Part shown: piece by piece, positions 39,485-64,000 of the stretch
Numbering within the stretch: the first letter of the stretch is position 1
How the letters are laid out: each line of letters begins with the position of its first letter
Source: Sulfurimonas aquatica
GTDB taxonomy: Bacteria; Campylobacterota; Campylobacteria; Campylobacterales; Sulfurimonadaceae
Direction of reading: 5' to 3'
Length of the DNA: 64,000 bases
Assembly (NCBI RefSeq): GCF_017357825.1
Contig: NZ_CP046072.1
Location: 682,001-746,000, forward strand
Program-made: the position numbers and the translations under genes
Notes under the pieces: model-generated
What the model was told of the DNA's origin: nothing
The model's database searches: none
Seen by the model: only the letters and a program-made list of their open reading frames with translations

Positions 39485-39559
39485 TCCGGATTAGCTCAGC
39501 GGTAGAGTAGGTGACTGTTAATCACTTGGTCACTGGTTCGAATCCAGTATCCGGAGCCA
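39485..39559 (+). tRNA. tRNA-Asn (anticodon GTT)
   Basis: The 75-nt cloverleaf includes encoded CCA: acceptor TCCGGAT/ATCCGGA, D-stem GCTC/GAGT, anticodon stem GGTGA/TCACT with loop CTGTTAA, T-arm ACTGG-TTCGAAT-CCAGT. It lies 23 bp after tRNA-Met and probably shares its transcript. The integrase-bearing island begins behind its 3' end, making it the likely integration target. Confidence 0.95.
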
Positions 39560-40054
39560 CATTTTAAAAACAATCAAACTAAATCTCTCAGAACATCGAT
39601 AAATAGGTACTTTCAAGCACTATTACATCATTTCAGTTTAGCTATTAAAAAACCTTTATCCGGCTATTTGGCGGGACTTTTGAACATCGAAACAGCACTA
39701 CTATACAGTAACCTTACCGTTTAGCTCACTTTTTTACCCTACCTATGTTCCGGTACTATTTGCTTTTTTAGAATATTTGTAAGAAACAGATTTCAGATGC
39801 TTATTTTTATCACTCAATATCCTTATATTTTAGGTTTTAAACTGCAATGCTTTTTTTGTCGGTAATGAAAATGAGGCTGGATTCTGCTCTAGAATATTGG
39901 ATTGTTTAGTAGCAATGAGTAATCTGAATTAACTCTAAAACCGGATAAATCCGGTTTAGAAAATGAGTTAAAAAGTATAAGTTAAAATGGAATGAGTTTT
40001 TGTCGGTTTTTTGAAAAAAGGATAGAACTATAAAAAGCTCTATATTTATAAGTT
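39560..40054. other. Gene-free segment between tRNA-Asn and integrase (probable attachment arm)
   Basis: I see no credible ORF in these 495 bp. The segment should contain the attachment site at the tRNA 3' end and integrase arm sites. An inverted repeat is at 39938-39957 (AAACCGGAT / ATCCGGTTT, 2-nt spacer), which on the minus strand could end the integrase transcript. I found no second copy of the tRNA-Asn 3' end by eye to the right within the window. Confidence 0.5.
39938..39957 (-). terminator. Hairpin downstream of the island integrase
   Basis: A 9-bp perfect inverted repeat lies about 97 bp beyond the integrase stop, followed on the minus strand by TTTAG. It could alternatively be a protein-binding site in the attachment arm. 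Confidence 0.4.
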
Positions 40055-41173
40055 CTAAGCTTGAAGCTCTTTGAAGTTTAGCATATTGTTGATAGCGTCT
40101 TTTCCTGATTCTGGTGCAAGGTGAGCGTATCGCATTGTCATATCCATAGAAGCGTGATTCATTAATCGCATAACGTTGTATAGTGGTGTGCCAGCAATAA
40201 CGAGTAAACTTGCGAATGTATGTCTGAGTGAGTGCACCACTATACGATTCTTAGCATCTTTTGGATCTAGTCCAATATTGAAGAGTTTGTCTAGATGCTT
40301 TTTTAGTCTCCCTTGTATAGTTCTTGAATTGAATATTTTATCGCTTCTACCTATTACGTAATCGTTAGGTTTAAGCCCTTTAAGTGTCTCTTTTATGTTT
40401 GGTAGTAAAGACTCTGAAACATGGGATTTATAGGTGCTTTGAGACTTGAAATCATATATGCTAATGTTGGAGCCAGAAAAAGATTTAGCTGTTAAATTTA
40501 CAATTGAGTTTAATCTCGCCCCAGTTGAGAGACTCAAGCGAGTAAAGAGATCAAGCTCTTCATCATCTTTAATCGCATCAAGAAGCTGTATGATATTTTC
40601 TTGAGTGAGATAATTTATTCTAGCATTGTCGAGTTTGAGATCATCCATTAAGCCATCACATATGTTATGTGAGTTAAAACGAATGTTCTCACTTGTTATC
40701 GCATGATTAATAATAGTTGATACAAGGGATATAACATGCTTTGTTGTAGCCTTTGACTTTGTGGAGAGTAGTCTTGTTTTAATTGTGAGTATATCTGCTT
40801 TAGTAAGATGGTTTATACTCTTACCTCCTATGTACTCTTTTACATGTAAGTTGTATCTATTTTGAGGGTTATAAGTATCTTTTTTTCCAGAGTCTAAAAG
40901 ATACTGAAAATAACTCTCAGCGATTGCATTTAATTTTAGTTGTTGCTTGTTCTTCTTATGAGCTAGAGGGTCTTCACCTAGTCTAGTTATATTAATATAC
41001 TCTATACGCTTGTTATTCGCATAGTTCTCAGTAATGCCATGTGATTTATTCCCCACCTTAACTCTTCGCCATTTACCGCTAGTATTGTTATAACCACAGT
41101 AGTAAGTTGTATCACCATTTTTTAAGATGTTTGAATAAACACCGGGAAATTTCTTTGACTTTATCATTGCCAT
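40055..41173 (-). CDS. Tyrosine-family phage/island integrase
   Basis: This 372-residue recombinase points at tRNA-Asn. The catalytic domain shows Arg in STGARLNSIVNL, His-x-x-Arg in HSLRHTFASLL, His in LMNHASMDMTM and the nucleophile Tyr in RYAHLAPE. The N-terminal half carries a SAM-like core-binding domain (ADILTIKTRLLSTKS). I use ATG 41173, which has GGAGGT upstream; an upstream TTG would add 7 residues. Integration beside a tRNA is the known habit of such enzymes. It is monocistronic, with the excisionase-like gene upstream. Confidence 0.93.
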   Translation of the reverse strand: MAMIKSKKFPGVYSNILKNGDTTYYCGYNNTSGKWRRVKVGNKSHGITENYANNKRIEYINITRLGEDPLAHKKNKQQLKLNAIAESYFQYLLDSGKKDTYNPQNRYNLHVKEYIGGKSINHLTKADILTIKTRLLSTKSKATTKHVISLVSTIINHAITSENIRFNSHNICDGLMDDLKLDNARINYLTQENIIQLLDAIKDDEELDLFTRLSLSTGARLNSIVNLTAKSFSGSNISIYDFKSQSTYKSHVSESLLPNIKETLKGLKPNDYVIGRSDKIFNSRTIQGRLKKHLDKLFNIGLDPKDAKNRIVVHSLRHTFASLLVIAGTPLYNVMRLMNHASMDMTMRYAHLAPESGKDAINNMLNFKELQA

Positions 41174-41281
41174 TTCAGTTACCTCCAGTAACAATAGAAT
41201 ACTTTGATTCTATTGTAGAGGTAGTGCAATGACACTGACAGTAAGGAGTACTATATGTGAAATTATTCATTTACTACTCCC

Positions 41282-44052: not shown

Positions 44053-46275
44053 ATGTCTCAAATTACAACAAACAATTACTCGGATGCAGCACTTGATTCT
44101 TCAAGTACTGCATCGCAAACTACAACAATAATAAAAGGGAAAATGATGAACGATACAACCACTACAGCAAACACAACTATTAGCACAGAGGATTTAGATA
44201 TGAATAAAACTACAGAAGTGACTCACTCAGAAGTACAGGATTTAATCATAGATGAAGTAATAAAAACTACTCCAATAATAGTTGCCAACTCTACTACGAC
44301 CGGAGAACAATCAACACAAGTAACAGTTGTACCTAACAGAGTAACAACAAGTACTACTCCTTGGATAAGAATGATGCAGACTGTTCCAACAGCAAGTGAA
44401 ATACAAGAGAGAAAAGAAGCTCGTAGAGTAGACTTGATTGCTGAAAACTATGGAACTGGTTGTAAATATAATGTAAATGATGTTGAAAAAAGTGTAAGTA
44501 TCCTAATCGATGAGGGTAAACTGTTAAGTCAATGTCTGAACATAACATTAGAAAGTGGTGAGAAGCTTGAAGTTGAAGATCTCATTCTAAAGGGAAATCA
44601 TCACAGAGTGAAAGATCTCATTGAACCAGAGTTTGGAACTGGAAGATTAATGCATAAGTACTATTTTGATGCAGAGTATGCAACTACACTAAGAGAAGGT
44701 GAAACATTTAAAGTCGTCTATACCCTAGATTCTATTAAGAAAATTATTAAGAAGTTATTTGGCAAAACTATTGCAAAACAGAATTTTTTAAGTGCTTTAA
44801 TTAAAGTACTTACCGTAACTAAAGTTTCCTCTAGTGATATTTATTCGGTCGAAAAACGTTTAGAAGAGTCTTTTATAATTGATAAAGGAAATACCTTTGT
44901 AGCAGATGCCCTTAAAGCAATAAGAGAAGCAAAAAAAGTAGTTCCAGTAGTTCAAGAAACAGATTATGAACAAAGAGCTTTTGGGATTATGAAAGACTAT
45001 GCTGTCTTGAACAATCAAGGAAAACCTCAAATTATTAATACAACTAAGCTTGGACTAGTTGCATCATCAGAAAGTGGACTAAAAGCTCTATTTAAAAATC
45101 AACTTATTAATGGGGAAAATCCAGTAGATATTTGGATGCACAGTAAGAACAGACCTATCTTTACTGATACAAAGTTTGACCCATCATGTAGTACAGATGA
45201 TGATAAGTACAATCTCTTTAAAGGTTTTAAGCATAAAGCGATATCGATTGTGGATATATCTTTTTTTAAAAACTTCGTAAAAGAAGTTATCTGTAGTGGT
45301 GATGATAAAATGTATAACATAGTGTGGAGTTTTTTAGCACAGATGTTACAGGACCCAAGTAGAAAAATGGGGACAGCTCTAGTTTTACTTTCATCAAAGG
45401 GTACGGGTAAATCTACCTTTGTCAAAGTAATAGGCGAACTCCTTAAGGGTTACTTCTATCAAAGTGCTGATAATAAAAGACTTCTAGGGGAGTTCAACAC
45501 ACATCTTGAGACTACACTCCTTTTTTATGCAAATGAGTTAACGTTTACAGATAACAAAAGAGTTATCTCTAAACTCAAGAATGTCATTACAGAGAAGAAC
45601 TTTACATACGAAATAAAAGGTGGTGCTACATACAGTGCCGACAACTTGATTCGTGTAATTATTGATAGTAACGATGATATAGCAGTGGTGCAAACAGCAG
45701 ATGAAAGAAGGTTTATCTATCCTCTGATTTCAGAGAGAATGATAGAAAACACTGAGTACTTTAATGAGCTTCATGCGTTGTTTGAGACTAAAGGCTTTTA
45801 TGAATCACTTATGTATGACCTAATGCATTATGACTACCAACCTTGGGAGCATTACCTAAAGACACCACCAAAAAATGAAGTCACTGAGGAACAAGTAATG
45901 GAGAGTTTTATACCTATTGAATCATGGTGGTTAAATTGTCTTGAGACTGGTGTAATTCCATATGTGTCGTATGAAGTTGTTTATGATGGTAGGTTACATA
46001 TTGCAAATGAAGCTTTATACCAAAGCTTCGCAAAACATACTCGAGCTAACGGGGGGAGAGTAAAAGTAGATTCTATTGCTTTTGCAAAAGCTATGAAAAA
46101 ACACATTCTAAAAGATATTGACCTTGACATTAAAAGTAAAATTCTAGTTGATAAAGTACGAAAAAACTCTCGTGTCTATGAGACTCGTGATAAAAGTATG
46201 ATGCACTATGCTAATATTAAAAAGCTTAATAATCTAGACTATGATGGCACACCCTGGGAAGTGTGTATCTCATAG
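44053..46275 (+). CDS. SF3/DUF5906-type helicase without primase domain (copy 1)
   Basis: This 740-residue replication helicase belongs to the plasmid/phage primase-helicase family. Walker A is SSKGTGKST (about 455-463), followed by LLFYANELTF (Walker B-like) and EIKGGATYSADNLIRVIIDSND with a sensor Asn-Asp. The C-terminal EWWxxxL-like region (SWWLNCLE) is shared with its paralogue at 47032. The first 100 residues are a low-complexity Thr/Ser tract and there is no primase region, so it appears helicase-only. ATG 44053 or ATG 44143 (AAGGG upstream) could start it. Confidence 0.82.
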   Translation: MSQITTNNYSDAALDSSSTASQTTTIIKGKMMNDTTTTANTTISTEDLDMNKTTEVTHSEVQDLIIDEVIKTTPIIVANSTTTGEQSTQVTVVPNRVTTSTTPWIRMMQTVPTASEIQERKEARRVDLIAENYGTGCKYNVNDVEKSVSILIDEGKLLSQCLNITLESGEKLEVEDLILKGNHHRVKDLIEPEFGTGRLMHKYYFDAEYATTLREGETFKVVYTLDSIKKIIKKLFGKTIAKQNFLSALIKVLTVTKVSSSDIYSVEKRLEESFIIDKGNTFVADALKAIREAKKVVPVVQETDYEQRAFGIMKDYAVLNNQGKPQIINTTKLGLVASSESGLKALFKNQLINGENPVDIWMHSKNRPIFTDTKFDPSCSTDDDKYNLFKGFKHKAISIVDISFFKNFVKEVICSGDDKMYNIVWSFLAQMLQDPSRKMGTALVLLSSKGTGKSTFVKVIGELLKGYFYQSADNKRLLGEFNTHLETTLLFYANELTFTDNKRVISKLKNVITEKNFTYEIKGGATYSADNLIRVIIDSNDDIAVVQTADERRFIYPLISERMIENTEYFNELHALFETKGFYESLMYDLMHYDYQPWEHYLKTPPKNEVTEEQVMESFIPIESWWLNCLETGVIPYVSYEVVYDGRLHIANEALYQSFAKHTRANGGRVKVDSIAFAKAMKKHILKDIDLDIKSKILVDKVRKNSRVYETRDKSMMHYANIKKLNNLDYDGTPWEVCIS

Positions 46276-46491: not shown

Positions 46492-46725
46492 ATGAATCCA
46501 TTAAATGAAGTTTTGGCAATACTAAAAGAGAAGTACGCGATGCTTTTGAAAAAAGAAGATTTGGCAGAGGTAATGAATTGTTCTCTAAGTTCAATAGACA
46601 ACCTTTTAAGAACTGGTGGCAACTTACCTAAACCGATTAAGTTCGCAGATACAAGAAATGCATCTATACGCTTTTTAAATACTGAAGTTGCAGAATTTTT
46701 AGTTAATGCATCTAAAGGTGTATAA
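46492..46725 (+). CDS. AlpA-like winged-HTH protein (copy 2)
   Basis: This 77-residue protein has an HTH at LLKKEDLAEVMNCSLSSIDNLL and ends IRFLNTEVAEFLVNASK. It aligns along its length with the 85-residue protein at 41282 (shared DLA..M..SLS core and VAEFL near the end). It heads the primase cassette, and GTGGAGGT lies just upstream of its ATG. Its role is probably regulation of the replication genes or excision; that is inference. Confidence 0.75.
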   Translation: MNPLNEVLAILKEKYAMLLKKEDLAEVMNCSLSSIDNLLRTGGNLPKPIKFADTRNASIRFLNTEVAEFLVNASKGV

Positions 46726-46726
46726 G

Positions 46727-47035
46727 ATGAGTTTCAACATACTAGAGATTACCAATAAAACAGGTGATATAAATAAGAATTTTTCTTATGTTGATGGTGA
46801 AGTCTGTAAAACTTCAAATGCTCAGGTTTACGATGCATCTTTTAGAGAATTAACATTTACTACTCTTGAAGAGTTTGACTTGTATATAACAAGTAATTTA
46901 CAATCTAATCAAGCGATATGCTTAGGAAAATCCAAACATAATCTTACTGCTGGAACACTTTTAACTAAGGGTAGAGAAGATTTATCTAAAGGAATTATTT
47001 CTCGTACTAATGATTACTTAGGAGTACAGTCATGA
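46727..47035 (+). CDS. N-terminal fragment of a split primase (102 residues)
   Basis: The protein ends IISRTNDYLGVQS, matching the 'SRTKDYF' block that opens primase-polymerase-type plasmid/phage primases, preceded by QAICLGKSKHNLTAG. The following ORF continues with a DVDID acidic motif where such primases have their catalytic Asp-x-Asp. The stop overlaps the next start by 4 bp (ATGA) in another frame. It is either a natural two-chain primase or an old frameshift. ATG 46727 is favoured over 46706. Confidence 0.6.
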   Translation: MSFNILEITNKTGDINKNFSYVDGEVCKTSNAQVYDASFRELTFTTLEEFDLYITSNLQSNQAICLGKSKHNLTAGTLLTKGREDLSKGIISRTNDYLGVQS

Positions 47036-49476
47036 GTGTACAAGTATGTTTAGGCGATGTTGATATAGATGAGCAGATGTCAGAGGAGATGATCAAAACC
47101 ATATCTACTCAAGATGCTACATATGATGCAGTAGTGGAATTACATGGTAAGGAATTTCAAGATGTAAGTGTTAGAAGTGGTTACAGTAGTAGTTCTGGTC
47201 TAATAGATGAAGAAACACAACAGCCGGTTTACATTAGTAACTCTCAACATTTGTATTGGACATTATTAAATGCGAACTCTTCACAAGACTTAGATAGATA
47301 TGTTGAGTTTTTAAAGAGACGTGCAGTTATAAAAAAGTTTTGGTTTTTGAAAATACACAAAGATGGTAGTACAAGTTTTAGAATCTTGCTAGACCTATCA
47401 GTTATTAAGTCTATGCAATCTAGATTATCGTTTGAGGCACCAGCAACTGTTGGTGAAGGATTAAAGAAGATTCAACAAGAATCTAAATTTTACAACACAG
47501 AGAACGGTCTAATCCCTTTTGATTTGCATAATGTTGATTATAAAGGTTTACCAGATTGGCGAGTAGTTTACGAGCAAGCAAAAATAGATAATGAAGATAA
47601 AATCAATGCTGTGAAGAAGCAATACAGAGCTGATAAGATACTTGAACTTGTACAGTTGTACAATCTTAGTGAAGCAGAAGCCGCACTAATTATAGATGAG
47701 TATCTTTCAAAAAGTATTGTATCAGCTTCCATGATATTAAAGGGTACTGATAATAATCCTTACAGAGTATATCAATTTCTAACTCAAGATGCTACAAAGT
47801 GGGATGTCTATGATATTTTTGATTATAAAAAAGGGCTTGGAAAAACACATATAAATGTAAAGAATATTTTTAATGCAACAATCTATACATATCTAAGAGG
47901 TGGAGTTACTTACAATATCTCTTTTACATTAGATGAGATAATTGTACTTTTAGCTACCTTGGATTTTACTAAGGATGTAAAAAAGGTTCTTTTTTCTTTA
48001 GTTGACTATATTGTTTCTAATGAATTTAATAAAGATGATGTAAACACTATAATTGATTTACTTCAAAGTAAAAATTGCTCATTCGAGTTTGAGAAGTATT
48101 ACTATAAAAACTATATAAATTTTACAGTACAAGCAAAGATGAGTGATTTTGCTTTTATGATGATGGATGGGAAAACAGGAGTTTTTAGAAAGAGTGAAGA
48201 TGGTGACTTAACACTTTACACTATAAAAAGCATAAGCGACTTGTTTCTAAATAAGAACTTTTACTCTAAAGACCCAAATAACTTATCAAAGACAATACTT
48301 ATTGATGTTGTAAAACATTGGTTGCGTAGTCAGGAAAGAGAAGAATTTACTTCTGTTGTATTTACAGACAAAGATACCAAGGAAGATGAATATAACCTGT
48401 TTGGAGGTTTTGCATATGAGCCGATCAATCATTCAGGTGTTGATTTACAGCCATACTTTGAATTAGTAAAAGATGTTATTGCTGGTGGGGATGAACTGTT
48501 TTGTAATGTGAACCATTCTTTTGTTGCTCAGATGCTTCAAGACCCATTCAATAAACTTGGTACCGCTCTCGTTTTAAGTGGAAAAAAGCGTATTGGAAAG
48601 GGATCCTTTATAAAAATAATTGGTGCATTAATTGGCGGTAATCATTACTTTCAAACGAATCAACCTGATAAAGTTTTTGGACGTTTTAATATTCAGTTGT
48701 TGAGGACTATTTTAGTATATTTAAATGAAGCATTTTGGTCTGGTGATAAATCTATGGAAGGACGAATTAAGGGGATAATTACTGATGATGATTTTAGTTA
48801 TGAAATCAAGGGCGGAGCAATCTTTGGTGGTAAAAATGCTACTAGATTGATTTTAGATTCTAATGAAAAATATATAGTTCCTGCAACTGAAGATGAAGGA
48901 AGATATATAGTTGAAGGTGTCTCTGATTGCAAGAAAGGAGATAAAGAGTTTTTTACATCTGTAAATGACTTACGAACAAGTCAAAAGGCTATGGAAAAAC
49001 TGATGTACTTTTACATGAACTTTGATTATAAACCATATGAACACTATCTAAGAGAAGCTCCTAAGAGTAAATTTCTTATCGAACAGATATCTCAGAACTT
49101 TAGTAAGATTCAAGAATGGTGGTTTAGAAACCTTCAAGAAGGTAACATTTATAAAGCTAATTATGTAATGGATGCCGATGGTATTAAAATTTCAAACGAG
49201 GCTTTATGGGAAAGTTTTAAAGAGTTTCATAAAGGTAAAACGCAGTACGAGAAGCAACAATCTTTTTATAGTGATCTAAAAGATTTACTCGATGGTGTTG
49301 TTGTGAGAAGTGGTGTAAAAGTTAGTGCTGGCGTTACTGGAAAAGTTATAGCTCCTCTTCATAGAGCTAGAGAGTTATTTACTCACATTTACTTAGTGAG
49401 TGATTTTGATGATATGGTTGATTGGTCTCAACCGTACACACTAGATATCCCTCTACCAATTCCATTCTGTGCTTAA
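47032..49476 (+). CDS. Primase-helicase, SF3/DUF5906 type (copy 2)
   Basis: This 814-residue replication protein has a primase-like region in its N-terminal third: GDVDIDEQM acidic motif, RSGYSSSSGLI, NSQHLYWTLL with the His, and RLSFEAPATVGEG. The helicase part has Walker A SGKKRIGKGS (about 520-530), VYLNEAFWSG (Walker B-like) and EIKGGAIFGGKNATRLILDSNE. Over the helicase part it resembles the 740-residue protein at 44053. Its own N-terminus seems to be carried by the preceding 102-residue ORF. Its Walker A reads GKKRIGKGS, with Ser keeping the GKS/T rule. Confidence 0.83.
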   Translation: MSVQVCLGDVDIDEQMSEEMIKTISTQDATYDAVVELHGKEFQDVSVRSGYSSSSGLIDEETQQPVYISNSQHLYWTLLNANSSQDLDRYVEFLKRRAVIKKFWFLKIHKDGSTSFRILLDLSVIKSMQSRLSFEAPATVGEGLKKIQQESKFYNTENGLIPFDLHNVDYKGLPDWRVVYEQAKIDNEDKINAVKKQYRADKILELVQLYNLSEAEAALIIDEYLSKSIVSASMILKGTDNNPYRVYQFLTQDATKWDVYDIFDYKKGLGKTHINVKNIFNATIYTYLRGGVTYNISFTLDEIIVLLATLDFTKDVKKVLFSLVDYIVSNEFNKDDVNTIIDLLQSKNCSFEFEKYYYKNYINFTVQAKMSDFAFMMMDGKTGVFRKSEDGDLTLYTIKSISDLFLNKNFYSKDPNNLSKTILIDVVKHWLRSQEREEFTSVVFTDKDTKEDEYNLFGGFAYEPINHSGVDLQPYFELVKDVIAGGDELFCNVNHSFVAQMLQDPFNKLGTALVLSGKKRIGKGSFIKIIGALIGGNHYFQTNQPDKVFGRFNIQLLRTILVYLNEAFWSGDKSMEGRIKGIITDDDFSYEIKGGAIFGGKNATRLILDSNEKYIVPATEDEGRYIVEGVSDCKKGDKEFFTSVNDLRTSQKAMEKLMYFYMNFDYKPYEHYLREAPKSKFLIEQISQNFSKIQEWWFRNLQEGNIYKANYVMDADGIKISNEALWESFKEFHKGKTQYEKQQSFYSDLKDLLDGVVVRSGVKVSAGVTGKVIAPLHRARELFTHIYLVSDFDDMVDWSQPYTLDIPLPIPFCA

Positions 49477-49543: not shown

Positions 49544-49861
49544 ATGTCATATAAATATATTAAAAGTCCATCTATGCAGATGGCATCAGAAGCAAAGTCG
49601 CTCACTATTGATGAGTATTTACAATTAGAAGAACTGTTGAAACAGTTCAAAGAATCTCATGACAGAGATACAAGAGTTACAATCATCAGTGAAATGAAGT
49701 TCTATGTTGAACGATTCTCTCTTGAGTCAAAAGTTAGCATTTATTACAATAACTGGTTAAAAGATACAATTCATAGTGATTCATATATGAATTTAATTTT
49801 AACTCTTCGCCGATTATCCAAAGAAGCCTATGAAAAAGAGATATTTAAAAATCTCCTCTAA
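49544..49861 (+). CDS. Island protein of unknown function, 105 residues
   Basis: This small charged helical protein (SLTIDEYLQLEELLKQFKES near residue 20) has no recognised family. AAGGAAAA precedes the start. It is the last plus-strand gene before the origin-like region, 67 bp after the primase-helicase, so a role in replication is possible but not shown. Confidence 0.6.
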   Translation: MSYKYIKSPSMQMASEAKSLTIDEYLQLEELLKQFKESHDRDTRVTIISEMKFYVERFSLESKVSIYYNNWLKDTIHSDSYMNLILTLRRLSKEAYEKEIFKNLL

Positions 49862-49869
49862 AGATGTAA

Positions 49870-50077
49870 CTATCACAGCTATCACGACTATCTAGACTTT
49901 TTTTGAAGTTTGTTGCATATTTTATAGAGTCTTTTTAAATATTATTATTTTTTTTTTTAAAAGTTAAATAAGTCTAGATACTCTAGATAGTTGTGATAGT
50001 AAAGGATATCCTTTACACTATTCTTCGTAAAATAATAAGAATTTATCAGTACTATCTAGACTGCTCTAGATAGTACT
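49870..50077. other. Iteron-like, AT-rich, multi-palindromic region (candidate replication origin)
   Basis: Three tandem 9-bp units on the plus strand (49870-49896: CTATCACAG, CTATCACGA, CTATCTAGA) face three on the minus strand (49973-49999: TCTAGATAC, TCTAGATAG, TTGTGATAG). They are separated by about 76 bp of very AT-rich DNA with long T runs. Then come a perfect 18-bp palindrome GTAAAGGATATCCTTTAC (49999-50016) and a perfect 13-bp inverted repeat AGTACTATCTAGA (50048-50060 / 50065-50077). It sits next to the primase-helicase and between convergent genes. Iterons flanking a melting region fit an origin; a tandem terminator is the alternative. Confidence 0.6.
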
Positions 50078-50105
50078 AAAATAGATTTAAGCTCTCGCCT
50101 AAACC

Positions 50106-50294
50106 TTAACACTCCTTAATCGCTTTTACTAACGAAGGCATAACCTCAAATATCTCAGCTAATTTTACATAGCTTCCACTTGAAGTATATATATTTTTAT
50201 AGAGTGTCTTCGGACTCAACCCATATGGGTCAAGTTCACAAATCTCTTCTATCTTTGATTTTAACTCTCTTGGTAAATCTTCATAATCTCTCAT
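50106..50294 (-). CDS. Small island protein, 62 residues
   Basis: This acidic, helical 62-residue protein has a C-terminal SYVKLAEIFEVMPSLVKAIKE segment that resembles a helix-turn-helix recognition region, so it might bind DNA. The start overlaps the stop of the 31-residue gene (TAATG). It is the last gene of a minus-strand operon running from 51439 and ends 29 bp from the last palindrome of the origin-like region. Confidence 0.55.
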   Translation of the reverse strand: MRDYEDLPRELKSKIEEICELDPYGLSPKTLYKNIYTSSGSYVKLAEIFEVMPSLVKAIKEC

Positions 50295-50389
50295 TACTTA
50301 CCTTTACTGTTATCGTTGTGTATAATATAATTACATACACATTTTTCATTTTCTCTTTTTTTAACTATAGGTTTTCTAACTCTTCTCAT
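50294..50389 (-). CDS. Micro-ORF, 31 residues, basic
   Basis: ATG 50389 to TAA 50294 encodes a very basic peptide (MRRVRKPIVKKRENEK...) with a CVC motif. AGGAGA lies 5 bases upstream, and the stop overlaps the next start (TAATG). Position in a tight operon makes translation credible. Function unknown; nucleic-acid binding would fit the charge. Confidence 0.45.
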   Translation of the reverse strand: MRRVRKPIVKKRENEKCVCNYIIHNDNSKGK

Positions 50390-50398
50390 TTGATTCTC

Positions 50399-50524
50399 CT
50401 AATCTCTGTAGTTGCTACTGCAACCGCCTATACTGTCACTAAACTTGTGACTTCTTCTACTTGCTAAACCTCTTGTTTGGTTGATATTCATTCTCTCGTA
50501 ATATCTTGCTCTTGGGTCATACAT
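50399..50524 (-). CDS. Micro-ORF, 41 residues, Arg/Ser-rich
   Basis: ATG 50524 to TAG 50399 encodes 41 residues (MYDPRARYYERMNINQTRG...) with GAGGAGA just upstream. It starts 2 bp after the preceding gene ends and is followed 10 bp later by the next micro-ORF start. I recognise no family. The good Shine-Dalgarno and operon spacing support it. Confidence 0.5.
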   Translation of the reverse strand: MYDPRARYYERMNINQTRGLASRRSHKFSDSIGGCSSNYRD

Positions 50525-50525
50525 T

Positions 50526-51146
50526 TTATTCTCCTCTTGTTGCTTTTAATAAATCTTCTATTTTTGGCAAAGTCACCTCTGCGCCTAATTCTTCATTTAA
50601 TCTCTTTTGTAAATCTGATATATTTTTATACATCGAATCTACTAACTCTTCATCTTTATGATTATCATACATCCATAGATGTAAACTACTCTCGCTATAG
50701 GCTCTAATATTTATTTCAATATCTTCTTCTGTTGCGAAACTGTAGTCATTTCTACTATCCCATATAGGGTTAATAACTTTACTTTTTTGCTTTATGTTTA
50801 TAAGCTCGTTCATCTTGGGGACTATAAGTTCCACTGTAACAAGCTTCTTGATTTCTTCATCATTTATTCCAATGATGAACCAGAACAAAGATGCTCTTTG
50901 TTCATTACTTAATATTTTAAGATTTTTTACTATCATCTCAAAATCACATTCTAATTCGATACCTTTATTTTCACAGTATCTTTGGATATCTTCATCATCA
51001 ATCGATTTTAATATCTCTTGTGCACCTGCTTCTTCTTCACAAATGCATATCGCATCAGAAACGGATAAATCCCCTTCTCTTAATGCTTTACTTAATATGT
51101 CATCAGGTTCTATATAAACCTCGACATCCCTTAACTCTACTAACAT
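50526..51146 (-). CDS. Island protein of unknown function, 206 residues
   Basis: This acidic soluble protein has no recognised motif. The N-terminus (VEVYIEPDDILSKALREGDLS) and the middle (SNEQRASLFWFIIGINDEEIKKL) look helical. Its start overlaps the DUF2958 gene by 7 bp, with AAAGGAG upstream, so the two are coupled. Strong acidity in a mobile-element gene next to DUF2958 could point to a DNA-mimic or anti-defence role, but this is only a suggestion. Confidence 0.6.
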   Translation of the reverse strand: MLVELRDVEVYIEPDDILSKALREGDLSVSDAICICEEEAGAQEILKSIDDEDIQRYCENKGIELECDFEMIVKNLKILSNEQRASLFWFIIGINDEEIKKLVTVELIVPKMNELINIKQKSKVINPIWDSRNDYSFATEEDIEINIRAYSESSLHLWMYDNHKDEELVDSMYKNISDLQKRLNEELGAEVTLPKIEDLLKATRGE

Positions 51147-51439
51147 TTCAACTCCTTTATATCTCCATATCTTGTTGGAGCGAAATGTAAATCTCTTTCA
51201 ACTCTCAAACCATTTACTTCTAGGTTCTCGAGTTCATCTAGGCTTACATAGCCTAACTCATCAGATTGCCCTTGCACATATGCGAAGAACAATCTATCTT
51301 CTTTGCTATATTCTAAAATCCACCACATCCAGTTATGGATAAAGAATTTTGTATAAACCGTCTTATTCTCTAGCTTAGTATCCTCATCTGAATACATCGC
51401 TGGAATTATCTTCTCTAACTCTTTTGTCATCAATTGCAT
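51140..51439 (-). CDS. DUF2958 protein (copy 1)
   Basis: This 99-residue protein has the DUF2958 pattern: KFFIHNWMWWILEYSKEDRLFFAYV, ELGYVSLDELE and RDLHFAPTRYGDI. The family is found almost only on plasmids and integrative elements and has no proven function. The long GAGGAGGT Shine-Dalgarno suggests strong translation. It leads a five-gene minus-strand operon and has a paralogue at 55805. Confidence 0.82.
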   Translation of the reverse strand: MQLMTKELEKIIPAMYSDEDTKLENKTVYTKFFIHNWMWWILEYSKEDRLFFAYVQGQSDELGYVSLDELENLEVNGLRVERDLHFAPTRYGDIKELKC

Positions 51440-51560
51440 TTTTACCTCCTCGTAACTAATGCTATTAATAGATTTATTTCTATGGTATGTATGATGTATT
51501 TCTCATACGGTAAAAGAGCATGTTTATTTATCTTTTTAGCTAAGAAAAGTTAGGATAGAA

Positions 51561-51701
51561 ATGACACAGATATTTACATGGAGAGGTCGAGACACTGAAC
51601 GAATCAATACTAAGGAATTATTACTGACTTACAGAAGTAAGCAAATTCTCAAATTTATTAAAATAATTCCCAACGTAAATTTGAGTCCAAGTGCCAGCTA
51701 A
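51561..51701 (+). CDS. Possible micro-ORF, 46 residues
   Basis: ATG 51561 to TAA 51701 encodes a basic 46-residue peptide (MTQIFTWRGRDTERINTKE...), with TTAGGAT upstream. No family. It could be a chance ORF in the divergent control region of the island. Confidence 0.3.
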   Translation: MTQIFTWRGRDTERINTKELLLTYRSKQILKFIKIIPNVNLSPSAS

Positions 51702-51798
51702 CACTTGATGCGTTTGTTTATCAAATCACCTAAATCCTCTTGTGCTTGATTTCAAGGAACTGAACAAATTAAAGGAAATTCAAAAAAAGGTTTAAACT

Positions 51799-51945
51799 AT
51801 GGAAATTAAATTCAATCAATACGAGCATGAATATTTACTTAAAGCAGTAGAGAAGATGCAACAAGATAAAAAAGATGACAAAGAGGTTACAATCCCTGAG
51901 ATGTCACATGAAACAAAAGTTGCCCTCAAACTTGTAGGTTTTTAA
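51799..51945 (+). CDS. Small island protein, 48 residues
   Basis: ATG 51799 to TAA 51945 encodes 48 residues (MEIKFNQYEHEYLLKAVEKM...), a charged helix followed by EMSHETKVALKLVGF. AAAGG lies about 9 bases upstream and a clear terminator hairpin follows at 51949, which together support a real single-gene unit. Function unknown. Confidence 0.5.
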   Translation: MEIKFNQYEHEYLLKAVEKMQQDKKDDKEVTIPEMSHETKVALKLVGF

Positions 51946-51948
51946 ATA

Positions 51949-51980
51949 TACAGTCGATGCATTAATTTGTATCGACTGTA
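51949..51980 (+). terminator. Terminator after the 48-residue gene
   Basis: A perfect 10-bp stem (TACAGTCGAT / ATCGACTGTA) with a 12-nt loop starts 4 bp after the stop and is followed by CTTTCTT. Confidence 0.6.
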
Positions 51981-52031
51981 CTTTCTTGTGGCTAAATTTA
52001 TGACCAGTAAGTCCATCCTGCCCGCCCATTT

Positions 52032-52253
52032 TCAACTCTGTGGAAAATACTTCATAATTTTATCAAGTTCATTTTCCATCTGATACAGTTCATACACTTT
52101 TGAAACATATTTATTTAAGAGTTCTAAACGCGACACATTAATGTTTTTAAAATCTTGCTGCATAGTAACTGCCAAGAAAATTATAAAGTCCTCATCCTCG
52201 ATTGCCACATCAAAGTTTTGGGAGTGAACCATAAGTGTGATGGTATTATTCAT
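52032..52253 (-). CDS. Island protein of unknown function, 73 residues
   Basis: This 73-residue acidic protein reads MNNTITLMVHSQNFDVAIED, then SRLELLNKYVSKVYELYQ. Its start overlaps the 59-residue gene by 8 bp. A broken copy of the same family lies at 54633-54859 (VHSQN, SRL..L..YV..VYELY shared), so it is a bona fide family of this island. Function is unknown. Confidence 0.6.
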   Translation of the reverse strand: MNNTITLMVHSQNFDVAIEDEDFIIFLAVTMQQDFKNINVSRLELLNKYVSKVYELYQMENELDKIMKYFPQS

Positions 52254-52425
52254 CTATACCTGAACCATACACCTCTAGTTCTAAATCTTCTATATGGTTT
52301 GCCATCAACACTAAATCAGTTATAGAAACTTCAACACTTGCTAGCCCTTTTTTGCTCCATTTGTATATTTGAAATATTAAGTCATTGATACTATCTTTGG
52401 CATAGACTTTTTTATTTTCATTCAT
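52246..52425 (-). CDS. Small island protein, 59 residues
   Basis: ATG 52425 to TAA 52246 encodes 59 residues (MNENKKVYAKDSINDLIFQ... ending EVYGSGIDE). AGGAT lies upstream and its end overlaps the 73-residue gene, so the two form a coupled pair. It is divergent from the PIN-domain gene, sharing the 161-bp gap with the inverted-repeat operator. No family recognised. Confidence 0.5.
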   Translation of the reverse strand: MNENKKVYAKDSINDLIFQIYKWSKKGLASVEVSITDLVLMANHIEDLELEVYGSGIDE

Positions 52426-52482
52426 TGGGGTAAATCCTATTCTAAGATAATAGGATTATATGGAGAGGTTAGTGAAAGTTTA

Positions 52483-52531
52483 ATTACATAAGATGTAATA
52501 AATAATAAAATAATAACTACTTATTACATCT
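52483..52531 (+). promoter_or_regulatory. Operator-like repeats before the PIN-domain gene
   Basis: Half-sites ATTACAT (52483-52489), ATGTAAT (52493-52499) and ATTACAT (52523-52529) form a 7-bp palindrome with 3-bp spacer and a perfect 11-bp inverted repeat AGATGTAATAA (52491-52501 / 52521-52531). They end just upstream of the TATAAT at 52551, overlapping the -35 zone, as expected for a repressor site. Confidence 0.6.
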
Positions 52532-52550
52532 AAAATTAATATGTTATTAT

Positions 52551-52556
52551 TATAAT
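52551..52556 (+). promoter_or_regulatory. -10 box (TATAAT) for the PIN-domain gene
   Basis: TATAAT is 31 bp before the ATG at 52587 and 20 bp after the last operator arm. TTAAGGAA between serves as Shine-Dalgarno region, although it is somewhat far from the start codon. Confidence 0.5.
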
Positions 52557-52586
52557 GGTGGAAATTTAAGGAAAAAAATAATAAAT

Positions 52587-53606
52587 ATGAGTGATAACAC
52601 AAAAAAAATTAGAGATATGATTGTCGAATATGAGATTGACTTAAAAGACGTACTACAAGCAGCAAGAGTATTGGGAATGAAGAAGATAGCTACTGATAAA
52701 AGTACTGTTTACGATGCACAAATTCAAAAAATATTAAAGTATATAGATACTGCAGATTCGACTTTAAAGTTGTATACAGTTGATGATATTGTTACAAGAT
52801 ATAGGATTAGAGAACCGCTGGTCATAGAGATAGCAAAAAGATTAGAAATAAACAATATTTATAAATCACAAAGCTATATCTCAATTAAGCAATTGACAAG
52901 TATTGTGAATTATCATTCTAATGAGTACAAGTATAATATGAAAGAAAATGATTCTAAGTTAAATGCAAATACTCAAAAAGAAAAATTATCAAAAGTAAAA
53001 AGTAGCACTAGTTTAAAGAAAACATCATTAAATCAAAAAGTAAGTGAATTTGAATTTATGATAAGACATGGTTATTTGATATTTTTCGATACATCAAGTT
53101 TAATGAATCCTAATATATCCAAAATTTTAGAAAATGAAGTTATTCCTTTTCTAAAGAAATATAAGAAGGAACTTTATATTGTAGATTCTGTACATAAGGA
53201 ACTTGAGAAAAATTGTAAATCAGCTGAAAAAAGTATAAGAGAGAGAGCAGAATATGCATTGAATATGCTTGCTACACTCTCTGCAGATAAGTTATATAAA
53301 GTAGCAAAGACTAATTCTGTGCATACTCACTTTGCAGATGGTGAATTGTTGTCTTATTTTACTGATATTAGAGTAATGACTAATCTATGTTTAGTTACAA
53401 ATGATAATAGTATTAAAAAAGATGGTAATTTATCAGGTGATATACTTAATTTAAAAAATAATAAAAGTGTTGAAACTAAATTTGATGTAAAGGTGTTTTA
53501 TATAAGTAATCATAAAGAGAATCCTCAATTAACTAAATTTGAAAAAAATAAAGATTCAAATTTTAGATTACATGAACACCCGCCAGAAATAGTAAAGCTA
53601 TTTTAA
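52587..53606 (+). CDS. PIN-domain ribonuclease-like protein
   Basis: The C-terminal half (about 160-300) is a PIN domain with acidic active-site residues: Asp in LIFFDTSSLM, Glu in SVHKELEKN, Asp in THFADGELLSYF and Asp in CLVTNDNSIKKDG. The N-terminal 120 residues look like small helical DNA-binding or dimerisation modules (LYTVDDIVTRYRIREP resembles an HTH). The 339-residue size is much larger than VapC toxins. It may act as an island-borne nuclease for stability or defence; a partner antitoxin is not obvious, though the divergent 59- and 73-residue genes are candidates. Confidence 0.75.
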   Translation: MSDNTKKIRDMIVEYEIDLKDVLQAARVLGMKKIATDKSTVYDAQIQKILKYIDTADSTLKLYTVDDIVTRYRIREPLVIEIAKRLEINNIYKSQSYISIKQLTSIVNYHSNEYKYNMKENDSKLNANTQKEKLSKVKSSTSLKKTSLNQKVSEFEFMIRHGYLIFFDTSSLMNPNISKILENEVIPFLKKYKKELYIVDSVHKELEKNCKSAEKSIRERAEYALNMLATLSADKLYKVAKTNSVHTHFADGELLSYFTDIRVMTNLCLVTNDNSIKKDGNLSGDILNLKNNKSVETKFDVKVFYISNHKENPQLTKFEKNKDSNFRLHEHPPEIVKLF

Positions 53607-53608
53607 AT

Positions 53609-54196
53609 TTATCTCACTAGAGATGCTTTTATATCTGAGTCTGTTGGTTTGATATACCCCAATGTCGTTGAAACATTCATGTGACCGATGAAGGATTGTA
53701 TTACTCGTGGATTTACAGATTTACTCCCCATCTCAGTTATAAGTCCTTGACGAAAACTATGTGAAGTGTAATTATCTCCTAAAACACTTTTCATATATTT
53801 ATTTACGAGCTGAATGAGAGAAACTTCATGAAAATGCTTTTGAGGATTGCCCCATGAAGTGATACAGTAGTTATTTATTTCACTTTCTTCATATATGAAA
53901 TATTTTTTCAACTCTTTGATGGCAGTATCACTAAAATATAGGATTCTTTCTCTTTTAGTTTTGTGAGAGATGATGATGGTTTCTGATGTTTGTATAATCT
54001 CTTGTATGTGCGAGTATCTAATCTGAGTGATTTCGTTGACTCTTAAACCACTGTAGTACAATATACAAAATATCTTAAAGAAGCGCTTTTGGTTAAACTC
54101 TTTGATATCTTCATCACCTCTTACAAACGCCATCAATTTTTTATACTCTTTCTCAGTTACTGATTTTTTAACTCTTTTGATATATGTGGTTTCCAT
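53609..54196 (-). CDS. Short tyrosine recombinase (XerD/Fim-type catalytic domain)
   Basis: This 195-residue protein is essentially the catalytic domain: Arg in YYSGLRVNEITQI, His-x-x-Arg in SHSFRQGLITEMG, His in FIGHMNVSTT and Tyr in TLGYIKPTD. It lacks the usual core-binding domain, like the FimB/FimE type. ATG 54196 with GGAG upstream is preferred over a TTG 12 bases earlier. Convergent with the PIN gene (2-bp gap). It could resolve, invert or mobilise part of the island. Confidence 0.85.
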   Translation of the reverse strand: METTYIKRVKKSVTEKEYKKLMAFVRGDEDIKEFNQKRFFKIFCILYYSGLRVNEITQIRYSHIQEIIQTSETIIISHKTKRERILYFSDTAIKELKKYFIYEESEINNYCITSWGNPQKHFHEVSLIQLVNKYMKSVLGDNYTSHSFRQGLITEMGSKSVNPRVIQSFIGHMNVSTTLGYIKPTDSDIKASLVR

Positions 54197-54422
54197 GATA
54201 AGCTCCAATTACTAGGTTTTAGTTATTTAGAGATTATTTTATAGTAACTATTCTGACATTCTAATACCGTTGGTAGAGGGAATGTACTTATAGCTTCAAT
54301 GATTAGGTTTTATATAATTTTGTAGTAATTGAATTTTAGTAGTATTGAAATATTTTGCACCCTGACATATTTTTCAATGTAACTAAGAATTTGTGAGAGA
54401 ATAGCCTTTAAGGAGTATAATT

Positions 54423-56297: not shown

Positions 56298-57368
56298 CTA
56301 CTGTCTTGCAAGTTTTGCTTCTACAAGATTACCCATTTTAGAGTTCATGGCCTGAACAAAAAAAGCTTCACCAAAAGAAACAGCCTCTTCGGTATATCTA
56401 CCTTCTAAATTACCTATAAATTTATCAATAATCCATTTATGTCCTGAATCAACTCCTATATTACATTCATCACCATTTTTATCTTTTATTATTGGATATT
56501 TCTCTTCAGATGTAAATTTATTCTTTACTTTAATATTTCTCTTGATACTTCCACTAAAGTCATTAAGCTCCACTACATTAGCATAGTCAAACAATACGCT
56601 CTTTTTTGTTCCCACTACTACAAAAAAGTTCGGTCCATATTTACCATAACTTTCTTTTGTAGAGTGCATAGACATTTTCAAGTTTATAGTTGTTTTGTCA
56701 GTTTTGAATATAGCTTGAAATTCATCAACCTTTGCATGCACCCAATGACTAGAAACTTTTCTTGGGAAGATATCAACAAGTTCGAATTTACCAATCAGAG
56801 AATAAATTATATATAAATTATGTGGATTTGCTTCAAAAAGTCTTCCCCCAGGGATACCTTGTGCCCAATGATCTTCTTCCATCATCCCAGGGTCTTCCCA
56901 ATTAAAGCTCATCTCTTTATTAATACTTATTATATCTCCGATCTCACCACTTTTGATCATATTCCTAACTTCTCTAACAGATGGATAGAATTTATGATTA
57001 TGCACGGCACACACTACCTTACTATAGCGCTCTTTTAGCTTTCTAAGTTCTTCTATTTCTTCTATAGTCTCAGTTACAGGTTTTTCAACTAATACATTAC
57101 ATCCATGTTCTAGTGATACTTTTGCTATAGACAAATGTGTAGCCGAAGATGTACATATATCTACAAAGTCTATATTTTTTTCATTTTGAAGTGCCTCTTC
57201 GATAGATGTGTAGTAACTATTCAGCCCATATTGTTTTGATGCTTTTTTTGCCATCTCTTCATTTATATCTACAAAGGCCACTATATCAGCACCTGCTGCT
57301 ATTAAAGCACCATAATGCAAATGTGTTCCAGTACTTCCTGCACCACAAATAATTCCTCTAATAGCCAT
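56298..57368 (-). CDS. Gfo/Idh/MocA-family NAD(P)-dependent oxidoreductase
   Basis: This 356-residue sugar-type dehydrogenase has a Rossmann motif near the start, IICGAGSTGTHLHYGAL, then VAFVDIN for cofactor choice and the catalytic EKP block VLVEKPVTETIEE. The C-terminal alpha/beta domain has DSGHKWIIDKF. Substrates of this family are usually sugars, inositols or sugar nucleotides. It lies 36 bp downstream of the NRPS-like gene and is probably cotranscribed. AAAGGA precedes the start. Confidence 0.88.
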   Translation of the reverse strand: MAIRGIICGAGSTGTHLHYGALIAAGADIVAFVDINEEMAKKASKQYGLNSYYTSIEEALQNEKNIDFVDICTSSATHLSIAKVSLEHGCNVLVEKPVTETIEEIEELRKLKERYSKVVCAVHNHKFYPSVREVRNMIKSGEIGDIISINKEMSFNWEDPGMMEEDHWAQGIPGGRLFEANPHNLYIIYSLIGKFELVDIFPRKVSSHWVHAKVDEFQAIFKTDKTTINLKMSMHSTKESYGKYGPNFFVVVGTKKSVLFDYANVVELNDFSGSIKRNIKVKNKFTSEEKYPIIKDKNGDECNIGVDSGHKWIIDKFIGNLEGRYTEEAVSFGEAFFVQAMNSKMGNLVEAKLARQ

Positions 57369-57404
57369 TATTATTGTCCTTTATTCCTTTATATATATTA
57401 TTAC

Positions 57405-59942
57405 TTATTCAGTAAAAAAATCTTTTAGTACATGACTGGCTTTTTTAATATCACCATGATGAAAATTAACTGGTATTATATTAATATTTTCTCCAATTTT
57501 ATCTAAGTTATTATTTTTTAAAGAAATAATATAATCATATAAATCTTCATTATCTGTTCCTTTCCAATTTAAGTTTTTTTCTAGTGCTTTAAATAAAATA
57601 ATATTTGAAGAAACTAACATACTTGACAACCTCTCTGCTTGACTTAAAATAAATTCTGCATTATATGCTGAGATAACTTTATTAACATAACTGACTTCAA
57701 AACCAGCAGCTATGTATGATTTTCTTAAATTTTCTTTTCTTTTTTCTATATCCATTTTTGAAATAATATCTTTTAATCTATCATCTAATATAAATGTATC
57801 TATTGCATAAACATTAATATTAACATAAGATTTCTTTTCTAATTGGGCGGCTATCTCTAAAGCTATTAAACCTCCAAGCGACCAACCATAGAGATTGATT
57901 TCATCTTTATTAAATAGATTATCATTCAAAATGATTTTTAAATAATATGTAGCAAGTTGTTTTAAAGAAGAGATTTTTTCAGAATGGTACAAATTATAAT
58001 TATCAATTCCTATACAATTGTAAGAAGAATCGATATTTGTAGCAAATTCTTGATAAGCTTCGCAGCTAGCATTACCAGGGTGAATCATATACATATTTTT
58101 TTTTGTATTACTATAATTATTAAGATTACTTATTAACATTTCTTTTCCTTTTTTATATTTTTGAAGTGATATTTGATGTGCTAACTTTTTCACTGTTTTA
58201 CTTAAAAATATATTTTGTAATTTAATTGATATATTAAGTGTGATCTCAATTTCTAATGTTAATGAGATAGATAATAAAGAGTCTCCTCCTATGGAAAAAA
58301 AATCATCATTAATTCCAACTTTGGGTCTGTTTAATATTTTCTGAAATATTTCACACAAACTTGATTCTAGATTATTTGTTGGAGCTACATAGTTTTCATG
58401 ACTATAAAAGATTGGTTTAGGAAAGGATTTAAAGTCAAGTTTACCATGTAATGTTGTAGGAAATGAGATTACATGAATAAATAAATATGGGATCATATAC
58501 TCAGGTAATCTATTTTGTAGAAAACTTTTCAATTTATTTGAATTAATAGGTAGTTCAGATTGATAGTATGCGATTAAATAGCTATTCTTATATAATATAA
58601 CTTTGGTTTCAAAAATTAAACTAAATTTCCTTAAATTTAATTCGATTTCTTCTAGCTCAATCCTCAATCCATTTATTTTAACTTGGGAATCAGTTCTACC
58701 AATATATTGCAAATTGTCATCATCTAATAGTCTAACTAAGTCCCCAGTTTTATACATTTTATTATATATTTCAGATTCATTTTCTTTTATGAAAATATTT
58801 TGTAAAAAACTTGTTTTTGTAAGTTTTTCTTGATTGTTATATCCTTCAGCTAAACCTATTCCAGAAATATAAAGTTCACCTACCTCGCCCTTTTTTACCG
58901 CTTTCAGTGCATCTGATAAAATATATACTTTTGTATTATCAATGGCTTTGCCAATTGGTATTATGCTATGTATGTTATTGGAGCAATCAAAATACGTAGA
59001 ATCAATTGTTGTTTCGGTAGGACCATAAAGATTGATTAATTTAGTTTTTTTATATTTATTAATTTTATTAAAAAGATTAACATGGTGTTTCTGCAATACT
59101 TCACCAGATGTAAAAATATAATCTAAATTATGTAGAATGATATCAATATTCTTATGTGGTTGTACTTGTAAATATTCTAAAAAATATAAAAACATAGAAG
59201 GAACAAAATGAATAATATTTATATTGTAATTGATGATGTTGTTGACTATTTTCAATGGATCCTTATGATCTTCAGGATTAGAAATAACAAGAGTTGAACC
59301 AGTAAGAAATGATAATAGTAATTCCCATACAGATACATCAAATGTATATGGTGTTTTATGAAGTATTACTTGATTCTGTGCTATATTAAATTTATTTTTC
59401 ATCCACAATAGCCTGTTAAGTAAACTACTATGATTAATCATAACACCTTTGGGATTCCCTGTTGTTCCTGATGTATAAATAATATAAGCAATATTGTTTT
59501 TTTTCTTCAAGTTAATAGGATTTATACTTTTATTGTAACTAAAATCATCAATTTCTATTATGGTAATATTTTTATTTATTAATCTCAATTTTTTAGAAAA
59601 TTTTTTTTGAGTTATCACTATATGTGTGGAAGTATCGTTTAAAATAAATTTTATTCTGACATCTGAGAAATTCGGATCTACCGGTATATAAGTTCCACCT
59701 GCTTTAAAAATAGATAAAATACTTAATGGTAATTCTAGGGATCTTTCTAAGAAAAGTGCTATATTTTTGTTTTCAAGCATATATTTTTTAATATAACAAG
59801 CTAAAGAATTAGATTTATCATTTAACTCTTTATATGTTAAATATTCATTTTTAAAAACTACCGCAGTTTTATAGTTATTTTTTTTGACTTGTTGAACAAA
59901 AATTTCACAAATGTCATTATCAAAAATATTTTCAGTTATCAT
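57405..59942 (-). CDS. A-PCP-TE single-module NRPS-like synthetase, predicted serine-activating
   Basis: Domain order in 845 residues: adenylation (1 to about 500; YIIYTSGTTGNPKGV, LYGPTETTIDS, YKTGDLVR, HGKLD), carrier (phosphopantetheine Ser555 in DDFFSIGGDSLL) and thioesterase (about 610-845; nucleophile Ser688 in YGWSLGGL, Asp in AIDTFILD, His in NFHHGD). Reading the specificity pocket gives D-V-W-H-F-S-L-I-D-K, the serine code known from enterobactin synthetase EntF. There is no condensation domain, so it probably loads serine for another enzyme. No phosphopantetheinyl transferase is seen nearby. The gene is very AT-rich. Confidence 0.87.
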   Translation of the reverse strand: MITENIFDNDICEIFVQQVKKNNYKTAVVFKNEYLTYKELNDKSNSLACYIKKYMLENKNIALFLERSLELPLSILSIFKAGGTYIPVDPNFSDVRIKFILNDTSTHIVITQKKFSKKLRLINKNITIIEIDDFSYNKSINPINLKKKNNIAYIIYTSGTTGNPKGVMINHSSLLNRLLWMKNKFNIAQNQVILHKTPYTFDVSVWELLLSFLTGSTLVISNPEDHKDPLKIVNNIINYNINIIHFVPSMFLYFLEYLQVQPHKNIDIILHNLDYIFTSGEVLQKHHVNLFNKINKYKKTKLINLYGPTETTIDSTYFDCSNNIHSIIPIGKAIDNTKVYILSDALKAVKKGEVGELYISGIGLAEGYNNQEKLTKTSFLQNIFIKENESEIYNKMYKTGDLVRLLDDDNLQYIGRTDSQVKINGLRIELEEIELNLRKFSLIFETKVILYKNSYLIAYYQSELPINSNKLKSFLQNRLPEYMIPYLFIHVISFPTTLHGKLDFKSFPKPIFYSHENYVAPTNNLESSLCEIFQKILNRPKVGINDDFFSIGGDSLLSISLTLEIEITLNISIKLQNIFLSKTVKKLAHQISLQKYKKGKEMLISNLNNYSNTKKNMYMIHPGNASCEAYQEFATNIDSSYNCIGIDNYNLYHSEKISSLKQLATYYLKIILNDNLFNKDEINLYGWSLGGLIALEIAAQLEKKSYVNINVYAIDTFILDDRLKDIISKMDIEKRKENLRKSYIAAGFEVSYVNKVISAYNAEFILSQAERLSSMLVSSNIILFKALEKNLNWKGTDNEDLYDYIISLKNNNLDKIGENINIIPVNFHHGDIKKASHVLKDFFTE

Positions 59943-60109
59943 GTAAGCCTGGAAAGATAGAATTTTACTACACTAATACTATATTAATAGTGCTTACTTC
60001 TAACTTATTTAAGTAAGTAATATTAATTAAAAAATAAGTCTTTCAGTTAAAAGAAATTTATTATAGGATAATATCAGCACAATTTAATTATATAATAAGG
60101 GATAATAAA

Positions 60110-61120: not shown

Positions 61121-61174
61121 AATTTTCCATTATAAAATATCTTTCAAAAACATAGAATTAAAAAGGAGATTTAT

Positions 61175-62053: not shown

Positions 62054-62062
62054 GATGGAAAA

Positions 62063-63751: not shown

Positions 63752-63853
63752 ATTATTTAAAAATATATACTTCTTCTCGTTGGTACACTATTTTAGGTGT
63801 ATCGCAGTGATGAGTATTCCTTAACTTGACTAAATTTTATGTATATGTCGTTA

Positions 63854-64000
63854 TTAATTCGTGCTCCCTAATGTTAAATATATCCTTAATGTCATGCATC
63901 TCCAAAATCTATCAATGTAAATATTATCAGCTTTCTTCTTTTGAGTGTCCCGAAGATTAATTTCTATCTTTTTTATATTTCTCTTCGACGGTACAGACAA
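63854..64000 (-). pseudogene. Remnant of an IS3-type transposase (OrfB C-terminal part), runs off the window
   Basis: The minus-strand frame from the right edge to TAA 63854 contains KADNIYIDRFWRCMTLRIYL, matching the DNI-x-IERFWR block near the third catalytic residue of IS3-family DDE transposases. The Glu expected there is Asp, the preceding DGKGR block is degenerate, and the frame stops soon after, so it looks decayed. The rest lies outside the window. Confidence 0.5.

Follow-up and report, generated by a model that had tools for sequence, protein, structure and literature searches.

Facing arrays of 9-bp repeats next to an NrS-1-like primase-helicase gene as a probable replication origin of an integrative island in Sulfurimonas aquatica

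Integrative islands are bounded by traces of their own insertion, and one such island lies partly within the window analysed here, a stretch of 64,000 nucleotides from Sulfurimonas aquatica (contig NZ_CP046072.1, positions 682,001 to 746,000). The island is ~36.3 kb long and is bounded by 20-bp direct repeats of a tRNA-Asn 3' end. A tyrosine integrase gene comes after the tRNA-Asn gene (39485-39559), and the second copy of the repeat ATCCAGTATCCGGAGCCACA lies beyond the window at C1:757842-757861 (window coordinate 75842-75861). The genes and end sequence that matter for this analysis are as follows.

39542..39561, plus strand: attL, ATCCAGTATCCGGAGCCACA, the tRNA-Asn 3' end (direct repeat match)
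40055..41194, minus strand: island tyrosine integrase adjoining tRNA-Asn (Pfam, PHROG)
44053..46275, plus strand: 740-aa paralogue with a DUF5906 helicase domain (Pfam)
46492..46725, plus strand: 77-aa HTH/excisionase-like protein of the replication cassette (PHROG 668/4996 matches)
46706..47035, plus strand: 109-aa ORF with an ATGA overlap with the primase gene
47032..49476, plus strand: 814-aa NrS-1-like (PF19263/DUF5906) primase-helicase, the presumed initiator (Pfam 8.8e-16; PHROG primase 1e-25)
49544..49861, plus strand: 105-aa ORF between the primase gene and the array (ORF list, Pfam)
50106..50294, minus strand: 62-aa conserved protein, convergent on the array (homologue search)
53609-54208: short 199-aa tyrosine recombinase, 3.5 kb from the array (homologue search)

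The 109-aa ORF matches the N-terminus of a single 936-aa primase in a related element of another genome (G176), so the island primase is split into two ORFs; a D-x-D-like motif occurs at the start of the second of these (47032-49476). A profile of three paralogues/homologues matches the NrS-1 polymerase structures 6k9c/6k9e at 2e-11. NrS-1 polymerase (PDB 6k9c, 6lrb), which comes from a phage of Epsilonproteobacteria (PMC7102993), is the closest solved relative of the island helicase domain; the text of the paper describing it mentions neither iterons nor a replication origin (PMC7102993). A Pox_D5 match is weak and occurs in the G176 homologue only, and structure prediction for the 814-aa protein from a two-row alignment gave a pLDDT of 33.6, which carries no usable confidence. 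The 740-aa DUF5906 paralogue has no obvious primase motif.

Downstream of the primase-helicase gene, between the convergent 105-aa (plus) and 62-aa (minus) genes, lies a compact repeat segment at 49870-50077.

49870..49896, plus strand: left array of three abutting 9-bp iteron-like units (sequence, repeats, unguided scan)
49897..49972, no strand: AT-rich core of 76 bp, 86% AT, candidate melting region (base composition)
49973..49999, minus strand: right array of three abutting inverted 9-bp units (sequence, repeats, unguided scan)
49999..50016, no strand: perfect 18-bp palindrome GTAAAGGATATCCTTTAC adjoining the right array (sequence, repeats)
50048-50060 and 50065-50077, no strand: perfect 13-bp inverted repeat AGTACTATCTAGA/TCTAGATAGTACT with a 4-bp gap (repeats)

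The left array consists of CTATCACAG (49870-49878), CTATCACGA (49879-49887) and CTATCTAGA (49888-49896) with no gaps between them, and the right array, read on the minus strand from the outside in, of CTATCACAA (49999-49991), CTATCTAGA (49990-49982) and GTATCTAGA (49981-49973). The AT content of the core compares with 69% for the stretch 39561-64000. The 13-bp inverted repeat (50048-50077) carries an additional facing CTATCTAGA pair and is a candidate third iteron cluster, by analogy with a Roseomonas plasmid and pMP1, which likewise have a third cluster. The left array starts 394 bp past the stop codon of the PF19263/DUF5906 gene, with the 105-aa ORF intervening. An earlier note, made from the sequence alone, had described three exactly contiguous 9-bp units facing three inverted ones over about 76 bp, placed between convergent genes and next to a primase-helicase gene, and the coordinates and gene assignments bear out each of these points. 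Its further statement that the palindrome and the inverted repeat share a core stands for the 13-bp repeat, which holds the CTATCTAGA core, and falls for the 18-bp palindrome, which lacks it. GC skew changes from positive to negative at the array (~50000); the change has the direction of a terminus, not of an origin, though it tracks the convergent gene orientation.

Facing arrays were sought with a scan for 3+3 units with free period (7-11) and free gap (25-140), scored as information content over the six units. Applied without guidance to 39561-64000, the scan ranked this array first with a period of 9, a gap of 76 and a score of 80.8, compared to a mean of 63.7 and a maximum of 69.9 in 80 dinucleotide shuffles (Gumbel p ~4e-5). 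The exact 9-bp register of the earlier note was picked by the data from a free range of periods. The 35-nt inverted repeat reaches a score of 20, where 300 dinucleotide shuffles give at most 13, and CTATCTAGA has four copies in the 64-kb window, all within the array segment, where 1.06 would be expected. No comparable array was found in the island remainder past the window (coordinate 64000-75861) and no facing array 3' of the gene for the 740-aa paralogue; an Rfam search of the segment gave no match. Shuffles for other records were few (2-4 per comparator, 20 per same-genus locus and 40 for the G059 island described below). The scan is weak on irregular arrays, for it ranked ori1 of phage P4 first with a score at shuffle level only; since it misses irregularly spaced iterons, a negative scan does not prove that an origin is absent.

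The layout of facing arrays around an AT-rich core matches the published origin layout of PICI and SaPI islands (PMC6092414, PMC7581432). PICI origins are AT-rich regions flanked by two iteron sets directly 3' of rep, and their function has been tested for EcCICFT073 (PMC6092414). The island likewise has two iteron-like sets, one on each side of an AT-rich region, 3' of the presumed initiator gene. Of the PICI gene set (regulator, int, pri-rep, packaging/interference genes), integrase, HTH and primase-helicase genes are present. The differences are several: the island units (CTATCACNN/CTATCTAGA) are unlike those of PICI/SaPI origins such as EcCICFT073 and SaPIbov1 and keep an exact 9-bp pitch, the initiator is NrS-1-like (DUF5906), the 105-aa ORF intervenes, and the island carries biosynthetic cargo, while neither a terminase nor a capsid gene was seen in the set of proteins scanned. 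In SCCmec, repeats that follow the operon of the helicase Cch2 serve as its binding sites (PMC7581432), and PICMI satellites, which are detected with a DUF3987/DUF5906 primase model, require their primase for replication (PMC10803314).

Phage P4 offers a second comparison. Its crr site, like the island array, lies directly 3' of the gene for a primase-helicase, P4 alpha, which matches PF19263, the domain that it has in common with the island protein; overall similarity is low, and hhalign of the C-terminus of the 814-aa protein against P4 alpha gave no match. P4 iterons are of an 8-bp type I, with the first two 9 bp apart and facing iterons on the opposite strand. P4 has two separate sites (ori1 and crr) and the unit GGTGAACA, whereas the island has a single site and another unit, so that only the alpha-related primase-helicase of a P4-type replicon is found here. 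The origin of the Sulfolobus plasmid pRN1 is also directly 3' of an AEP-primase/SF3-helicase gene, but it is a lone 100-bp stem-loop without iterons (PMC4234260). Iteron plasmid origins of Rep_3/RepA type share tandem short repeats beside AT-rich DNA; the 9-bp units of the island face each other instead of pointing in one direction, and no Rep protein of this type was found among the island proteins scanned.

Comparison with replicons that carry DUF5906 proteins extends this picture. The comparators are those reached with one tblastn family and do not constitute a census. Of nine DUF5906 plasmids scanned over their full length, seven have facing arrays of 8-9-bp units within ~400 bp 3' of the primase gene, with DUF5906 proteins that are only ~25-35% identical. 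The best 3' score and the best score elsewhere in the whole record are given below for these seven.

pMP1: 75.7 on the 3' side, 66.8 elsewhere
Roseomonas plasmid NZ_CP024585: 89.2 on the 3' side, 64.1 elsewhere
pMNOD07: 79.4 on the 3' side, 65.3 elsewhere
pW47-1: 67.7 on the 3' side, 65.6 elsewhere
pC-202212: 82.8 on the 3' side, 70.5 elsewhere (5' side)
pEC224_4: 88.9 on the 3' side, 69.3 elsewhere
pIsolateG_E: 77.8 on the 3' side, 78.1 elsewhere

The 3' site is thus the best array of the plasmid in six of the nine (pMP1, Roseomonas NZ_CP024585, pMNOD07, pW47-1, pC-202212 and pEC224_4), in a 500-bp stretch that makes up ~2-8% of each record, and a close second-best in pIsolateG_E. The 500 bp on the 5' side of the DUF5906 gene never held the best array in the nine plasmids. 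The period, free between 7 and 11, was 9 in six of the seven array-bearing plasmids and 8 in one. Nearly all comparator cores exceed their own record in AT content, with the short inner spacer of pMP1 alone near average. The remaining two plasmids, near-identical 6.5-kb Klebsiella plasmids, have no array by scan, nor do pTH2c and the phages YuA, phiVC8 and RHph_X2_30. The record of the Citrobacter plasmid pC-202212 (L062, 26,750 bp) contains a 13.4-kb plasmid twice in tandem, a dimer that may be real or may have arisen in assembly.

Three to four phages with a DUF5906 protein have the same layout. In phage ct8d5349 the array lies at +67 bp with a period of 9, and V45iii and AAT-1 have arrays 3' of the primase. 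Roseobacter phage RDJL Phi 2 has an array with a score of 98.9, period 9 and gap 80 in a 1.5-kb non-coding stretch; it is a candidate origin of that phage. This array (L073 8426-8559) consists of GTATAGCTT x3 around the 80-bp core and lies ~2 kb past the primase gene.

Within the genus, an island in G059 carries an integrase, a DUF5906 primase and an array 74 bp past the primase stop with a period of 9. Its inner units GGTGAACAT GGTGAATAT face ATGTTCACC ATGTTCACC (L029 9168-9285) across a 64-bp core that is 89% AT by scan, and the next gene is convergent. The units include exact copies of the annotated P4 type I iteron GGTGAACA, two facing two. Clear arrays with periods of 9-11 also occur in G509 and G145 of the same genus, but most loci lack one: only about three of the 19 other testable same-genus DUF5906 loci have a clear array and two to three are marginal. 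Close relatives of the cassette are rare: there are none in the viral contig and genome contig collections or in the family sample, and one among ~400 genomes of the phylum. Exact unit pairs occur elsewhere in one unrelated viral contig and one other genome, which indicates that the unit sequence is not widely shared. The earlier note had regarded absence of the repeats from relatives of the primase cassette as a point against an origin. On this point the evidence is divided, because no facing array turned up in the stretch scanned of the G176 element, which at 31% identity is the closest full-length relative, while more distant replicons have arrays.

The comparative architecture indicates that the segment 49870-50077 is very probably the replication origin, or an essential cis replication site, of the ~36-kb island. 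The best explanation, by analogy, is an origin of the type known in PICI/SaPI islands and akin to P4 crr. This agrees with the candidate origin of the earlier note, now that seven of nine plasmids, three to four phages and a same-genus island have been found to carry the layout 3' of the primase-helicase gene and published PICI/SaPI origins share it. Points against it are the G176 element without an array, the small share of same-genus loci with a clear one, the plasmids and phages that lack one by scan, the failed C-terminal match to P4 alpha, the intervening 105-aa ORF and the direction of the GC skew change. In such a scheme, the island integrase would excise the island as a circle. The primase-helicase (the 814-aa protein plus its split-off N-terminus, the 109-aa ORF) would bind both facing arrays, like SaPI Rep and P4 alpha, and could load two hexamers in opposite orientation, which would melt the AT-rich core of 76 bp. 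Primers would then be made on the exposed strands by the primase domain and host polymerase would copy the circle, with the extra unit pair at 50048-50077 as a possible auxiliary binding cluster. The small neighbour proteins, which the earlier note had named as potential binders, are less likely in this role than the primase-helicase. The 62-aa protein was set aside as the array binder since its homologues occur in four genomes without any array. The genes for the 62-aa protein, a DUF2958 protein and the 199-aa tyrosine recombinase (50106-54208) co-occur in several genomes of the order (L016, L104, L105), two genomes have this set without a primase match nearby, and it is apparently a separate mobile module. 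Its presence elsewhere without primase or array makes its proteins unlikely as the main binder.

Other functions can be envisaged for the segment. It could be a second cis site like P4 crr, or a copy-number or incompatibility control site bound by the primase-helicase, with replication starting elsewhere in the island. P4 has crr directly 3' of alpha and its annotated rep_origin at a distance, and iteron sites can serve copy control. Against this, no second unit cluster was found in the island, and the origin of PICI/SaPI islands and of pRN1 is the very site that lies 3' of rep (PMC6092414, PMC7581432, PMC4234260); we regard an accessory role as improbable. A bidirectional terminator between convergent genes, made of long inverted repeats, is slightly less probable still. 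The convergent genes, strong predicted RNA folding (z of -6.8 and -7.8 for the two strands) and terminator-like stems at 50106-50083 (minus) and 49999-50016 (plus) are what such a terminator would offer. However, the long stems are not followed by a U-tract, as a GC-rich terminator hairpin would be, the main arms enclose a 62-nt loop, and a terminator has no need for exact 9-bp tandem units. The geometry also recurs 3' of unrelated DUF5906 genes, among them those of pMNOD07 and pW47-1, in which the following annotated gene does not converge on it, and termination leaves the association of the layout with DUF5906 genes unexplained. The missing U-tract sustains the earlier judgement that a complex terminator is less likely, and the separate stem at 50083-50106 could end the transcript of the 62-aa gene.

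A recombination or partition site, whether binding sites of the 199-aa tyrosine recombinase (53609-54208) or a centromere, is very unlikely. At 50048-50077, inverted units paired across a short spacer look like recombinase arms, and the recombinase gene lies 3.5 kb away. Against this, homologues of the recombinase in G176, G323 and G029 are not accompanied by the array, the island showed no partition ATPase, and facing 9-bp arrays follow the primase gene in distant plasmids. Least likely of all is a transfer origin or a simple operator bound by an HTH regulator, which inverted repeats beside AT-rich DNA and HTH proteins in the cassette might suggest, because no relaxase was seen among the island proteins scanned with Pfam, the site is 3' of both flanking genes, and promoter-like matches do not rise above chance level.

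On balance, NrS-1-like (DUF5906) primase-helicase replicons, including integrated islands, small plasmids and some phages, are likely to share a general origin architecture: facing arrays of 8-9-bp units on either side of an AT-rich core, placed 3' of the gene, with a constant pitch and geometry and a unit sequence that varies between replicons. If so, the layout is not restricted to PICIs, contrary to the 2018 PICI paper, which describes it as confined to them. The origin type of the island is already known; the wider DUF5906 pattern may be new. A single origin layout would link PICIs, P4 and a group of plasmids. For uncharacterised DUF5906 elements, the origin could be read from sequence and predicted beside DUF5906 genes, many of which are annotated merely as hypothetical or unknown-function proteins. 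Constant geometry with changing unit sequence suggests a possible way for elements to keep their initiators specific and remain compatible. For Campylobacterota, a phylum in which we found no such origin described, the analysis also provides a mobile-island origin that can be tested. The remainder of the island contains cargo (56298-64000 and C1:746000-757800) with NRPS-like, radical-SAM-like, carbamoyltransferase-like and phosphosulfolactate synthase/phosphatase genes; these may make up an unusual pathway of biosynthesis carried by a mobile island.
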